Shown here in pieces: positions 2,728-41,868 of a stretch of 64,000 nt of DNA; the first letter of the stretch is position 1; the number at the start of each line of letters is the position of its first letter. A program made the translations under genes and the position numbers. The stretch comes from Ornithinicoccus hortensis (GTDB lineage: Bacteria > Actinomycetota > Actinomycetes > Actinomycetales > Dermatophilaceae), in NCBI RefSeq assembly GCF_006716185.1, contig NZ_VFOP01000001.1, positions 62,001 to 126,000 on the forward strand. Direction: 5' to 3'. The notes under the pieces were generated by a model. The model was not told the DNA's origin. It made no database searches and saw only the letters and a program-made list of their open reading frames with translations.

Positions 2728-4214
2728 GACGCTACCTGACCATTTCCTCGACGATCGATTTGCGATCTAAGCCTTCGAATAAGTCCCGGTTCGCAGGCTA
2801 GGAGAATCGCTATGCCAACAAGTCCCGCCATGCTAGAGAGGGCGACAGCGAGCCATTCGTTGGTCATTTGATCACCGATGATGTGCGTCACTGGCCAAAC
2901 AAACAGTCCTGCTGCCAAGGGTCCAGAGAGTCGTGAGAGCGCCTGGTATGCTGGTAACCCAGTATCACGAATCTGCCGTAGATACATCGGAAGCACGACG
3001 ATCACCGCCACTGCCACCTGCGCTGCGGCAACACCTGCAATGCCGCGGGCACTCGCCCCAACCACAGCGCTTGGCACCAGAGCCACGAGCCACGTCACTT
3101 GAATGACGAGGATGCCCTTAGTTTTCCTCAGCACGACCAGGTAGTCGTAGGTCAGCTCGAAGACGATGCGACATCCGGCGAGAAGAGCTAACCAGGTCAA
3201 AGCGGAAGCCGCGGGGAGCCACTGCTCCCCATAAACGAATGAGACGAGCGGGACGGCTGTACCTGCGAGGACGAAGCACACGGGGAAGGCCACAGAAGCA
3301 AGGATGCCCAAGACTCGCCTGAAGTTGCTCGACATACCTTGCAGGTCACTCTGCATCCGGGCAAAAGCGGCTGGTGCAACCGCGCGTAGCGGCTGAGAGA
3401 AGACGCTGACTGGCCATGAGGCGAGATTGAAAGCAAGGACGTAGAAGCCGAGCTCGGTCGGGCCCAATAGTGCGCCTGTGACTACCTGGTCCACATACCC
3501 GGCCGCGAAGACGACCGCACTGGCGCCGGCGAGGGGGAGTCCGAAACTGAGTAAGGGACGCAAGAGCGATGAGTCCAAGCCAGGTTTGAGAGCGGATGGG
3601 GCGTAGATCCCGAAGATGACAGCGGAGACAGTGCTCCCGACTAGTCGACCGATGGCTAGGCTCATAGCCCCCATCCCTGTCAAGGCTAATGCGATCGATA
3701 TGCCCGCACCGAGCCAGGCATTTGCCTGATCGGCGACCATTTTCTCTTTCTGCTTGAACTCCCGCTGCAGAACTGCCGCGGGAGCGGCCACAACCCCATT
3801 GATCAAGATCGAGGCAAGCAAGACGCGGACGACTGATGTTGACTCAGGGCTTCCCATGGCTGCCGCATACGTCGGGGCAGCCACGTAGCAGGCCGCAAAG
3901 AGGGCGGCACTGCTCACTATAGAGATTGTCGCCACGGTCGGAACGATCGGTCGCGGATCACCCTTCCAACGCACGATGGCCAAACTCACGCCGAGTTCAT
4001 TGAAGCTGAGAACAGCTAACAGCGCGACCATCGCCACGGCGAAGCTGCCAAACTCTCCGGGGCCTAGTATTCGAGCCAGCGCAATTCCTACCGCCAGTGT
4101 GCCAACCTTTGACACCGCTGTGTTCAGCAAGCTCCAACCGAGAGCACGTCCCGCTCGCTGGTTAAGGTCGGCTTCAGACGGTAAGGGCGGAGATGCGGCC
4201 GGTGGCGTACTCAT
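2724..4214 (-). CDS. Wzx-like polysaccharide flippase
   Basis: The 496-residue integral membrane protein belongs to the oligosaccharide flippase/MATE-like group (Wzx, RfbX). After a short soluble N-terminus, RALGWSLLNTAVSKVG opens the first helix, followed by ARILGPGEFGSFAVAM, a typical loop-helix signature of this family; roughly 12-14 hydrophobic segments follow. Its likely role is to flip lipid-linked oligosaccharide units across the membrane before polymerisation or transfer. Both ends show ATGA overlaps with the neighbouring glycosyltransferase and aminotransferase genes. No Wzy-like polymerase is visible in the window, so polymerisation must be encoded elsewhere or not be used. Confidence 0.85.
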   Translation of the reverse strand: MSTPPAASPPLPSEADLNQRAGRALGWSLLNTAVSKVGTLAVGIALARILGPGEFGSFAVAMVALLAVLSFNELGVSLAIVRWKGDPRPIVPTVATISIVSSAALFAACYVAAPTYAAAMGSPESTSVVRVLLASILINGVVAAPAAVLQREFKQKEKMVADQANAWLGAGISIALALTGMGAMSLAIGRLVGSTVSAVIFGIYAPSALKPGLDSSLLRPLLSFGLPLAGASAVVFAAGYVDQVVTGALLGPTELGFYVLAFNLASWPVSVFSQPLRAVAPAAFARMQSDLQGMSSNFRRVLGILASVAFPVCFVLAGTAVPLVSFVYGEQWLPAASALTWLALLAGCRIVFELTYDYLVVLRKTKGILVIQVTWLVALVPSAVVGASARGIAGVAAAQVAVAVIVVLPMYLRQIRDTGLPAYQALSRLSGPLAAGLFVWPVTHIIGDQMTNEWLAVALSSMAGLVGIAILLACEPGLIRRLRSQIDRRGNGQVAS

Positions 4215-14443: not shown

Positions 14444-14562
14444 ACCAGACGCGTCATCTGGCGGCCCCACGCCCCCACCAGACGCATGACCTGGCGGTCC
14501 CAGGCCCCCACCAGACGCGTGAGCTGGCGGCCTGGCCGGTGACCAGACGCCCGACCTGGCGA
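14444..14562 (+). repeat. Four-unit array of a 21-nt repeat, period about 33 bp
   Basis: Units start at 14444, 14477, 14510 and 14542 (spacing 33, 33, 32). Each unit begins ACCAGACG, has a variable core of about six bases, and ends CTGGCGG (CTGGCGA in the last). Intervening 11-12 nt segments are C-rich and variable. The same unit, with the same spacing, recurs at 40227-40412 and inverted at 40492-40644. CCAG and CTGG make each unit weakly palindromic. No cas genes are present and the spacers are far too short for CRISPR. Confidence 0.85.
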
Positions 14563-38972: not shown

Positions 38973-40211
38973 ATGACCGCCCACCCCTACGGTGTCCACT
39001 CCGAGGTCGGCAAGCTCCGCAAGGTGCTGGTCTGCCGACCCGGGCTGAGCCATGAGCGGCTCACCCCCAGCAACAACGACGAGCTGCTCTTCGACGACGT
39101 GCTCTGGGTGGAGAGCGCGCAGCGCGACCACCAGGACTTCGTGGACAACCTGCGCGACCGCGGGGTCGAGGTCGTCGAGCTGCACGAGCTGCTCGCCGAG
39201 ACGCTCGCCGTGCCGGGCGCCCGGGAGTGGTTGCTGGACCGCAAGCTCACCGTGCACGACGTCGGGTTGGGGCTGGTGGACGACACCCGGGCCTTCCTGG
39301 ACACCCTCGACAACGCGACGCTCACGGCATACCTGATCGGTGGCCTGTCGACCCGGGAGATCCCCGAGGAGTTCCGCTCCGACTACCTGGCGCTCGTCCG
39401 GTCCTCCGAGGGCGTGGCCGAGTACCTGATGCCGCCCCTGCCGAACACCATCTACACCCGCGACACCACGTGCTGGATCTACGGCGGGCTGACGCTGAAC
39501 CCGCTGTACTGGCCGGCGCGGCACGACGAGACGCTGCTGATGAAGGCGATCTACGAGCACCACCCCGACTTCACCGGCAGCACGGTCTGGTGGGGCGACC
39601 CGGAGCAGGACTGGGGGCAGGCGACCTTCGAGGGCGGGGACGTGATGCCGATCGGCAACGGGGCGGTGCTGATCGGGATGAGCGAGCGCACCTCGCGCCA
39701 GGCGATCACCCAGGTCGCCGCGAAACTGTTCGAGGCGGAGGCTGCCACGCGGGTCGTGGTCGCCGGCATGCCCAGGCTGCGCGCCGCGATGCACCTGGAC
39801 ACGGTCTTCACCTTCGCCGACCGTGACGTGGTCACCTACTACCCCGACATCGTCGACGGGATCAAGACCGTCTCGCTGCGTCCCGCGGACAACGGCGGGC
39901 TCGAGGTGACCGAGGAGTCCGCCCCCTTCATCGACGTGGTCGCCGATGCCCTCGGCCTGCCGGCCCTGCGGGCGGTTGAGCCGGGCGGAGGCTGGTATGC
40001 CGGGGAGCGGCAGCAGTGGGACAGCGGCAACAACGCGGTGGCGGTCGAGCCCGGGGTGGTCTTCACCTACGACCGCAACACCTACACCAACTCCCTGCTC
40101 CGGGAGGCCGGCATCGAGGTCATCCCGATCCGGGGTGCCGAGCTCGGCCGGGGCCGCGGCGGCGGGCACTGCATGACCTGCCCGATCTCCCGGGACCCGG
40201 TCGACTACTGA
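38973..40211 (+). CDS. arcA: Arginine deiminase
   Basis: The 412-residue enzyme hydrolyses L-arginine to citrulline and ammonia. It starts [20 protein letters not shown] with the family-typical GxxSExGxLxxV segment. [17 protein letters not shown] carries substrate Asp residues; [11 protein letters not shown] holds the Glu and Asp near 220; MHLDTVFTF holds the catalytic His near 270; [14 protein letters not shown] near the end contains the nucleophilic Cys. It is 22 bases after arcD. No arcB or arcC is seen nearby, so the ATP-yielding steps are elsewhere or missing. Confidence 0.93.
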
Positions 40212-40226
40212 GGGTGCGCCCTCCCG

Positions 40227-40412
40227 ACCGGACGCGTGAGCGGGCGGCGTTTCGACCCCACCAGACGTCCGAGCGGGCGGCGTTTCCACCCCACCAGACG
40301 TCCGAGCGGGCGGCGTTTCGACCTCACCAGACGTCTGGTCTGGCGGTCCGGCCACACCACCAAGCGCGTGACCTGGCGGCCGGGCTACCGCACCAAACGT
40401 GCGACGTGGCGA
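40227..40412 (+). repeat. Six-unit array of 21-nt repeats, exact 33-bp period
   Basis: Units start at 40227, 40260, 40293, 40326, 40359 and 40392, each 33 bases apart. Units begin ACCAGACG (ACCGGACG, ACCAAGCG and ACCAAACG variants) and end GGGCGG, CTGGCGG or GTGGCGA. The 12-nt segments between are variable but often read CGTTTC then ACCCC. Same unit as at 14444-14562. Confidence 0.9.
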
Positions 40413-40491
40413 TTACCCACGCGGTCGAGGCCAGCGTGAGCGCCTCGCGACGGATGACCACCAGAGGAGTCGACTAAACCCGTGCGGGACG

Positions 40492-40644
40492 CCGCCCGCT
40501 CGTGCGTCCGGTCGAGGGTGTAGACCGCCCGACCAGACGTCCGGTGGAGGTAAAAGGCCGACCGCTCGCGCGTCCGGTGCAGGCTAGGAACCGCCCGGCC
40601 AGACGTCCGGTGGGGTGGTAGCACCGCCCGCTCGCCCGTCCGGT
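40492..40644 (-). repeat. Five-unit array in opposite orientation, exact 33-bp period
   Basis: On the plus strand units start CCGCCCG (CCGACCG in one) and end CGTCCGGT, at 40492, 40525, 40558, 40591 and 40624, all 33 apart. Their reverse complement matches the array at 40227-40412. Spacers are 12 nt and variable. The two arrays point toward each other across 79 unique bases. Confidence 0.9.
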
Positions 40645-40650
40645 CGGGAG

Positions 40651-41868
40651 TCAGGACCAGTCGCGGGTGTCGACGATGGGGCCGTCGCCGTCGGTGAGGT
40701 GGGTGACGGCGACGACCTCGGCCCGGAAGCGCAGGCCCTCGCGGACCCGGGGGGCGAGGTCGGCGACGAGCGCCTCGGCGTCGGTGTCCGCAGAAGGGAC
40801 GACCTCGCAGCGCAGCGAGTCGACGTGGTCGGCCCGGCCGACGACGAACCGGTAGTCGGTCACGCCGGAGACCCCCGACATCACGGCGGCGACCTGGGCC
40901 GGGTGCAGGAACATCCCCTTGACCTTGACCGCGGCGCCGGTGCGGCCGAGCACGCCGCGCAGCCGCAGCGAGCCGTCGGGGCCGGTGGTCCAGCCGGACA
41001 GGTCGCCGGTGCCGAACCGGATGAGCGGGTAGTCGGGCCGCAGCACGGTGACCACCACCTCGCCCTCGGTGTCGTCGGTGATCGGCACGCCGGTCCCGAT
41101 CTCGCAGATCTGCACCAGCACGCCGCGGGCCAGCACCATCCCGGCACCGTCGCCGTTCTCGTAGGCCAGCAGCCCGGTCTCCCCCGTGCCGTAGGCCATC
41201 CGCACCGTGCCCACCCGCTCGGTGAGCAGGGCGCGCAGCGAGTCCGGCAGCGGCTCCGCGGTCACCATCGCCCGGTCCAACCGCCACGCCGAGCGCGGGA
41301 GCCCGGCCTCGTCATACCGCTCGGCGAGGGCCTTGAGATAGCTCGGCAGGCCGGTGTATGCCGTGATGCCGAGGTCTGCGATGGCGCGCGCCTGGAGGTC
41401 CTGGTTGCCGATGCCACCGGGCACCACGCGGGCGCCCACCGCGAGCGCGCCCTCCTCCATCATCGCCCCGGCCGGTGACAGGTGGTAGCCGAAGCAGTTG
41501 AGCACGGTGTCGCCGGCCCCCACGCCCATGTCGCCGAGCACCTGACCCCAGCGCCAGCTGTCGGCGCCGGCCAGCTGCGGCTCGTAGAGCGGGCCGGGCG
41601 ACTGAAAGACCCGGACCACGTCGGCGCCCTCGGCGAGCATCCCGCCGAACGGCGGCCGCTCCGCCTGCAGCCCGACCACCTCGTCCTTGGGCAGCACCGG
41701 CACCGCGGCCAGGTCGGCGACCGACCGGATGCCGGCCGGGTCCACCCCGGCGGCCTCCAACCGGGCGGCGAGTCCCGGGACGGCGGCGGCGCGGCCGACC
41801 AGGTCGGCGACGGCGCGGTCCAGTCCGTGGTCCTCCAGGTGCCCCCGGAGGGCAGCATCGATCGACAT
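40651..41868 (-). CDS. Phenylacetate-CoA-ligase-like AMP-dependent ligase
   Basis: This 405-residue protein resembles PaaK-type ligases: LPKDEVVGLQAERPPFGG near the start, then RVFQSPGPLYEPQ where the glycine/serine-rich loop lies. MAYGTGETGLLAYE and DYPLIRFGTGDLSGW follow, and GRTGAAVKVKGMFLHPAQV closes the lid hinge. It probably activates an aromatic or branched carboxylate to its CoA ester. The ATG at 41868 has AGGAG upstream; a much longer frame through the ABC genes is a shadow. It is the last gene of the liv-type cluster, so its substrate is probably the imported one. Confidence 0.8.
   Translation of the reverse strand: MSIDAALRGHLEDHGLDRAVADLVGRAAAVPGLAARLEAAGVDPAGIRSVADLAAVPVLPKDEVVGLQAERPPFGGMLAEGADVVRVFQSPGPLYEPQLAGADSWRWGQVLGDMGVGAGDTVLNCFGYHLSPAGAMMEEGALAVGARVVPGGIGNQDLQARAIADLGITAYTGLPSYLKALAERYDEAGLPRSAWRLDRAMVTAEPLPDSLRALLTERVGTVRMAYGTGETGLLAYENGDGAGMVLARGVLVQICEIGTGVPITDDTEGEVVVTVLRPDYPLIRFGTGDLSGWTTGPDGSLRLRGVLGRTGAAVKVKGMFLHPAQVAAVMSGVSGVTDYRFVVGRADHVDSLRCEVVPSADTDAEALVADLAPRVREGLRFRAEVVAVTHLTDGDGPIVDTRDWS

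Follow-up and report, generated by a model that had tools for sequence, protein, structure and literature searches.

Mycobacterial interspersed repetitive units (MIRU) are dispersed intergenic tandem repeats, with units of 40-100 bp, that are oriented with the genes, and the Sal boxes of mammalian rDNA are tandem, polar sites for a terminator protein that lie behind the transcribed unit. The repeat arrays of Ornithinicoccus hortensis described here are, like MIRU, dispersed, intergenic, tandem and oriented with genes, but MIRU units are longer and we know of no MIRU spacing classes or facing pairs comparable to those found here. The likeness to Sal boxes, as direct sites lined up immediately downstream of transcribed DNA, is an analogy only.

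REPs are described, in the part of a survey considered here, as lying mainly downstream of genes, forming facing dimers, occurring sometimes within genes and at times supplying stop codons; the same part gives no known transposase for the CGTC type, and it places CGTC repeats in five phyla and GTAG repeats in four plus the PVC group, with Actinobacteria not among the names given there (PMC3733652). REPs/BIMEs are also described as tied to gyrase, IHF, DNA polymerase I and Rho (PMC2817692). In behaviour the array family is closest to these elements as those texts portray them: it is short, present in many copies, extragenic and mostly behind genes (PMC3733652, PMC2817692), and it has facing pairs, occasional units within genes, units that supply the upstream stop codon and species-specific variants. 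It differs in that its core forms no stable palindrome, in that its units stand in direct arrays at a fixed spacing of 22 or 32-33 bp, and in that the Y1 transposase family PF01797 (RAYT), with which GTAG-type REPs are associated, is found in 0 of the 31 genus genomes searched (and in 5 of 14 control genomes). Because the palindrome and the RAYT are both lacking, we do not file the arrays as REPs. As to the REP tags, CGTC is the complement of a GACG inside the unit head and GTAG occurs inside some units of the relative G012, neither being at a stem end. A family of this kind is not described in the limited set of literature surveyed by title or abstract beginning.

The facing arrays behind arcA

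The window is the whole stretch of 64,000 nucleotides of the O. hortensis genome (G000) that was analysed; a window position is the genome position minus 62000, and the G000 sequence is high-GC as measured. Its arrays and their neighbours are given in Table 1. Unit mapping confirmed the six forward and five reverse units, all at 33-bp intervals, that the first-pass annotation had listed, and its division of the unit into 21 conserved and 12 variable nucleotides is correct; the exact period, the opposed polarity and the place between convergent stops are likewise supported. In the reverse array a 66-bp period is stronger than the 33-bp period (TRF), and the intervals of the second array in the window are 33, 33 and 32 bp.

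Table 1. Repeat arrays and adjoining genes in the window (window positions)
Feature	Position	Strand	Remark
Second family array in window, four units	14444-14562	+	9 bp past stop of 122-aa ORF
arcA, arginine deiminase gene, convergent neighbour	38973-40211	+	Pfam PF02274
Lead ahead of first + unit	40215-40226	+	gcgccctcccg-like, C-rich
Array, six units (21-nt core + 12-nt spacer)	40227-40412	+	Start 15 bp past arcA stop
Unit starts, + array	40227, 40260, 40293, 40326, 40359, 40392	+	Every interval 33 bp
Centre separating facing arrays, 79 bp	40413-40491	.	Facing-pair tally
Array, five units	40492-40644	-	Outer edge 6 bp off CoA-ligase-like gene end
Unit starts, - array	40492, 40525, 40558, 40591, 40624	-	Every interval 33 bp
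AMP-binding, CoA-ligase-like gene, convergent neighbour	40651-41868	-	Pfam PF00501 (E 1e-8); gene start is the analyst's call

Units consist of a 21-bp core, asymmetric and with the consensus ACCGGACGCGTGACCGGGCGG, and a C-rich 12-bp spacer after it. At core position 4, G is commoner than A genome-wide and A is found in a quarter of the units, and position 16 is G or T. Comparison of units over the 56 arrays of G000 (see below) gives identities of 0.81 (core) and 0.60 (spacer) inside an array and of 0.77 and 0.45 from one array to another; the core is similar throughout the genome and the spacers retain local history, which agrees with the earlier suggestion of selection or a copying mechanism. 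The 12 nt before the first unit (the lead) are 65% C and 13% G over the 56 arrays; the 50 nt downstream of 88 genes without an array contain 40% C and 35% G. The first spacers are C-rich as well, the sequence past the last unit is not conserved, and the core contains more G than C. In the predicted sense RNA a larger fraction of the spacers than of the core is unpaired (0.49 vs 0.31; 0.36 vs 0.26 in the antisense RNA), and a C-rich, G-poor and little-paired character is found in the lead and the spacers, not in the core. The arrays are not CRISPRs, as had been argued at the outset from the 12-nt spacers; these are not unique sequences of ~30 nt, they are alike between arrays, and the 22-bp class has none.

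A dispersed family with two unit spacings

The window site is one member of a dispersed family. Chaining of sites in the fetched regions of G000 gives 56 arrays with 209 units, two to six in each, and their intervals are 33 bp in 143 of 153 cases, 32 bp in nine and 31 bp in one. A weight matrix trained on the real sites finds 207 sites above 11 bits in these regions; a single 351,834-base sequence simulated from a first-order Markov model, which shares the nearest-neighbour make-up, contains none. A two-unit pattern with up to two mismatches has 140 matches (74 + 66) in the whole genome and 0 for the reversed control, and the fetched regions therefore contain most, not necessarily all, of the family. 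The refuting case named in the first-pass annotation, units present only as isolated random matches without conserved intervals, did not arise; the search of this genome and its relatives found the intervals conserved elsewhere.

Among 396 genomes of the order, the two-unit pattern matches in three, namely G000 and two others with one match each, and a looser pattern is near control level in the other 30 genus genomes, though a few of the places found are 33-bp arrays. A search for two exact heads separated by 16-46 bp, a pattern that misses variant heads and finds 37 places in G000 itself, gives at least 14 matches in 13 of the 31 genus genomes, 0-7 in the other 18, and 0-5 in 155 other genomes of the family; its control gives 0-3, except for 43 (18 + 25) in the sister-genus genome G213. 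We note that the reversed-control matches in G213 possibly represent another dispersed repeat. Among the genomes searched, the arrays are restricted to part of one genus, and by these pattern counts they look genus-specific and patchy.

Arrays of related sequence proved common in relatives, and two spacing classes are found within the genus. The head ACCGAGCGCG is carried by units of G008, G010, G018, G019 and G023, where the spacing is 32 or 33 bp for 109 of 132 intervals; G012 has ACCGGACGCG as its head, and its 29 arrays keep to 22 bp in 107 of 116 intervals. Some of the relatives' loci (L110, L111, L112) were picked by patterns that fix the 33-bp spacing, and those of G012 by one open to any distance of 16-46 bp. 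The relatives' weight matrix slid into coding sequence in later rounds and is excluded from the counts. The G000 core and the G012 unit have a common head and are alignable along the core; the 22-bp class has no C-rich spacer, but its C-rich lead is kept (62% C, 21% G in G012). G002 has 22-bp arrays, two of which face each other, and the rows listed for G420 are mostly 22 bp with one 32-bp array as well; in a 33-bp array of G420 each unit can be read as a 22-bp unit plus an 11-bp piece. Across the family the arrays have 2-13 units, the longest being the 13-unit array of G010 (L222 3994-4422). G006 has intergenic tandem repeats of 52-53 bp that share GTGTGAAGGAT (L118 11696-11802 and L119 11618-11802), apparently a separate repeat family.

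In a gltD tree of 21 genomes (one gene, midpoint root), G000 and the 32-33 bp genomes form one clade (100/100) and G012, G420 and G002 lie in the other (100/100), with array-poor genomes in both; the spacing classes sort with the two clades, and spacing therefore follows ancestry. A clpX tree was dropped as an artefact, since two of its branches had ~5 changes per column, probably from mixed strands. The step between about two and about three helical turns, one main change plus the G420 case, is suggestive of phasing without proving it. The phased-protein site proposed in the first-pass annotation gains from the existence of both 22 and 32-33 bp spacings, but these track two clades and are possibly the outcome of a single change.

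Placement and turnover

For 33 of the 56 G000 arrays the start is no more than 40 bp from a sense stop codon, and random placement in the same intergenic regions gives a mean of 4.0 such arrays and a maximum of 10 in 300 draws; 18 of the 29 G012 arrays lie equally close. For 13 of the 56 a convergent stop lies no more than 40 bp from the array end, and 2 and 3 arrays are as near to a start, the random expectation being about 4-5 for each of these classes. The flanking genes are convergent for 25 arrays, co-directional and in sense for 15, co-directional and against for 10, and divergent for six, as judged from home-made gene calls in which small flanking ORFs are possibly spurious and two arrays lie inside called ORFs. 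The 40 rows for relatives represent 39 arrays, since the overlapping L104 and L116 contain the same G018 array, and they divide into 14 convergent, 14 co-directional sense, six against, three divergent and three unassigned. The upstream ORF ends at a TAG within the first unit in 8 of the 29 G012 arrays, and in G000 an overlap of 1 or 13 nt with the upstream stop is found for five arrays; the constant frame of this stop is partly trivial because only one unit frame holds stops.

The array at genome position 704350 lies in frame and antisense within a fused CydDC gene, at the D/C junction, and is translated as 11-residue repeats, much as the first-pass remark that a period of 33 keeps reading frames open had anticipated. 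The CydDC orthologue of G008 has two arrays, one near the D/C junction and the other in sense in another linker. Arrays within cydDC speak against a strong unconditional terminator. RNA genes beside the arrays were considered and rejected; ARAGORN finds two tRNAs in 37 G000 loci, both in L049 and kilobases from arrays, and Rfam finds four riboswitches in 16 G000 loci. A SAM-IV riboswitch (L044 3809-3923, - strand, genome 403508-403622) lies ~90 bp from the array at 403709, which is among the few arrays between divergent genes.

Eighteen neighbouring pairs of G000 arrays are ordered + then -, with gaps of -4 to 3258 bp, and the nearest neighbours in the order - then + among the arrays found are about 11 kb apart. 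All seven two-array loci of G012 have the + then - order under strict chaining, and the contrary order is seen once, where a weak three-head - array precedes a + array in G012 L293. The pair at genome 161917-162335 resembles the window pair in having 6 + 5 units and a 79-bp centre, and the two align over 434 bp at 69%. Ten of the 18 pairs enclose 184-3258 bp, and seven of these ten contain called genes. Ten enclosed proteins were called and six of them scanned against Pfam; five matched, each differently and none as a transposase (alpha/beta hydrolase, mycothiol-S-transferase, endonuclease/phosphatase family, glycerophosphodiester phosphodiesterase and DUF2087), and the sixth had no match. No target-site duplication was seen by eye at the two pairs inspected.

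At gltD, the matching block of 30 relatives begins at query positions 3141-3217, the array edge being at 3148, and beyond that edge the G000 DNA is mostly unmatched in relatives. No array with the G000 head is present in the 170 nt behind gltD in 20 relatives; G010, G006 and G419 have other short repeats there. At the window locus, the CoA-ligase block begins at the stop of the gene in all four relatives compared, and in three of them the arcA block ends at the arcA stop; the fourth, G008, lacks a close arcA. The two blocks are widely separated in G006 and G010, and in G018 they occupy different contigs. Behind arcA five relatives have another convergent coding region in common, with no array of the G000 head, and the junction at the 3' end of the CoA-ligase gene is different in each of four relatives, with no arrays in 240 nt. 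At clpX the gene order is that of G002, and the G000 array is extra DNA between convergent stops that is absent from the G002 junction; in G012 a 22-bp array lies directly behind clpX. A set of clpX stretches of relatives taken by a fixed offset, several of them cut inside clpX, was left out as a whole. The idea that arrays occur only at rearrangements fits gltD, arcA and the CoA-ligase gene but fails at clpX. We note that G000 has clpX twice, at genome 3008831-3010082 and about 2683715-2684966 (L061 4132-5383 and L284 3516-4767), 97.8% identical over 1253 bp, and that the duplicate ends at the stop codon, at one place 20 bp from an array.

Among the matches listed is one between two arrays that lie 341 kb from each other; their identity is 91.8% along 122 nt, with 32 nt past the last unit included. 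From this pair and the array-free junctions of relatives it follows that arrays are gained and lost, and at least one pair resembles a copy; the suggestion of a mobile minisatellite thus has some support.

Possible roles of the arrays

We tentatively regard the arrays as genus-restricted, REP-like gene-end repeats whose core would be a putative protein site and which are proposed to mark transcription-unit boundaries, a reading that we prefer without holding it firmly. Its working unit would be the asymmetric ~21-bp core, with head ACCGGACGCG or ACCGAGCGCG, in 2-13 same-direction copies, the spacing being 22 bp in one of the clades and 32-33 bp in a second. A putative protein would bind the core sequence-specifically, with the copies on roughly one face of the helix, and the covered array behind a stop codon would act as the boundary, either as a roadblock or as an aid to termination; facing arrays would close a convergent junction from both sides. 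The arrays would spread by copying and lengthen by tandem duplication of one or two units. We infer a DNA-binding protein because the core is asymmetric and repeated at a fixed spacing, and a boundary function because of the position behind stop codons. The greater conservation of core than spacer, the consistent spacing in G000, G012 and the five relatives, the alignable G000 and G012 units and the 22 + 11 bp reading of the G420 unit all fit a protein site; the excess of arrays near sense stops in G000 and G012 and the facing pairs of both genomes argue for a boundary, and the presence of an array copy at two loci is in keeping with this reading.

Several observations weigh against this protein-bound boundary. 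The spacing follows two deep clades and may be that of a duplicated unit inherited without phasing, and 32-33 bp departs somewhat from three turns of 10.5 bp. No candidate binding protein for the core was found in the analysis, and any role must be dispensable because 18 of the 31 genus genomes have so few matches. Orientation is loose, with 10 of the 25 co-directional arrays pointing against the genes and six arrays divergent by our home-made gene calls; a strong roadblock should forbid the arrays within fused cydDC, of which one of the two in G008 is in sense; and the weak pair in G012 L293 has the wrong order. A fuller version, in which a putative protein coats direct arrays spaced near whole turns, the spacing has shifted between clades from about 22 to about 33 bp, a difference of one turn, and polar, facing boundaries co-evolve with a lineage-specific binder, is on present evidence unlikely.

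Ranking close behind the protein site, and nearly as likely, is a selfish or neutral dispersed repeat of the REP or MIRU kind that would have no host function and be tolerated behind stops and in protein linkers, its core being uniform since the copying machinery recognises it or since copying is recent. The patchy presence in the genus, the relatives' junctions at gltD and arcA, the near-identical arrays at distant loci, the array in the D/C linker of CydDC and the similar placement of published REPs, whose CGTC type has no known transposase in the text cited (PMC3733652), all point this way. It explains less readily why one spacing value is held over many diverged arrays, and the usual REP mobiliser and any target-site duplication at the two inspected pairs are missing. 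We consider it improbable that the arrays are instead RNA signals for Rho, in which the C-rich, G-poor lead and spacers, exposed as the ribosome leaves at the stop codon, would load Rho and end transcription. The composition of the lead, in G012 as well as G000, and the little-paired spacers are as expected for such a signal, which would also stay silent within a translated gene, and Rho-dependent termination is described as dominant in mycobacteria in the portion of the source used (PMC12288462). Against it, the 22-bp class lacks the C-rich spacer even though it keeps the lead, and what is conserved is the core, with more G than C. Nor, to our knowledge, do Rho sites carry a conserved 21-nt word.

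Less probable still is a mobile element whose long inverted ends, with repeated transposase sites, are the facing arrays and whose cargo is the DNA between them. Enclosed DNA and called genes in many pairs, the two pairs of identical layout and the loss of synteny close to the array edge (gltD) or at the stop codon (arcA, CoA-ligase gene) are consistent with it, but the scanned cargo proteins differ and include no transposase, unit number varies from 2 to 13 and many arrays are unpaired, the clpX array is extra DNA in an order common with G002, and the CoA-ligase junction is different and array-free in every relative compared. Least probable, and very much so, is an array of intrinsic terminators or mRNA-stabilising hairpins. 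The place behind stop codons would suit it, and a short stem of positions 2-5 with 15-18 can be drawn whose four steps pair in 84, 99, 45 and 80% of units, but the weak step, 4-16, is absent from the 14 best covarying pairs. Mean folding z is only -0.61 in sense and -0.83 in antisense for the 56 G000 arrays, although 7 of the 56 have z < -2, and -1.06 and -0.88 for the relatives' 40 rows. On folding z and pairing a hairpin terminator or REP-type stem was rejected; a scan for a terminator-like site (GC-rich hairpin and U run) found 0 in window 39900-40900, with 0.1 in shuffles, and the bidirectional terminator of the first-pass annotation is, in its hairpin form, unsupported.

Were the core a protein site, bacteria would have in these arrays a counterpart of gene-end boundaries that are site-specific and depend on a protein, and the natural change of spacing by about one turn would make phasing directly testable. 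Even as selfish DNA they would be a REP-like family that has neither a stable palindrome nor a RAYT transposase, which raises the question of what does the copying. Their facing layout and their location after stop codons offer a ready assay, and the genus holds both spacings.
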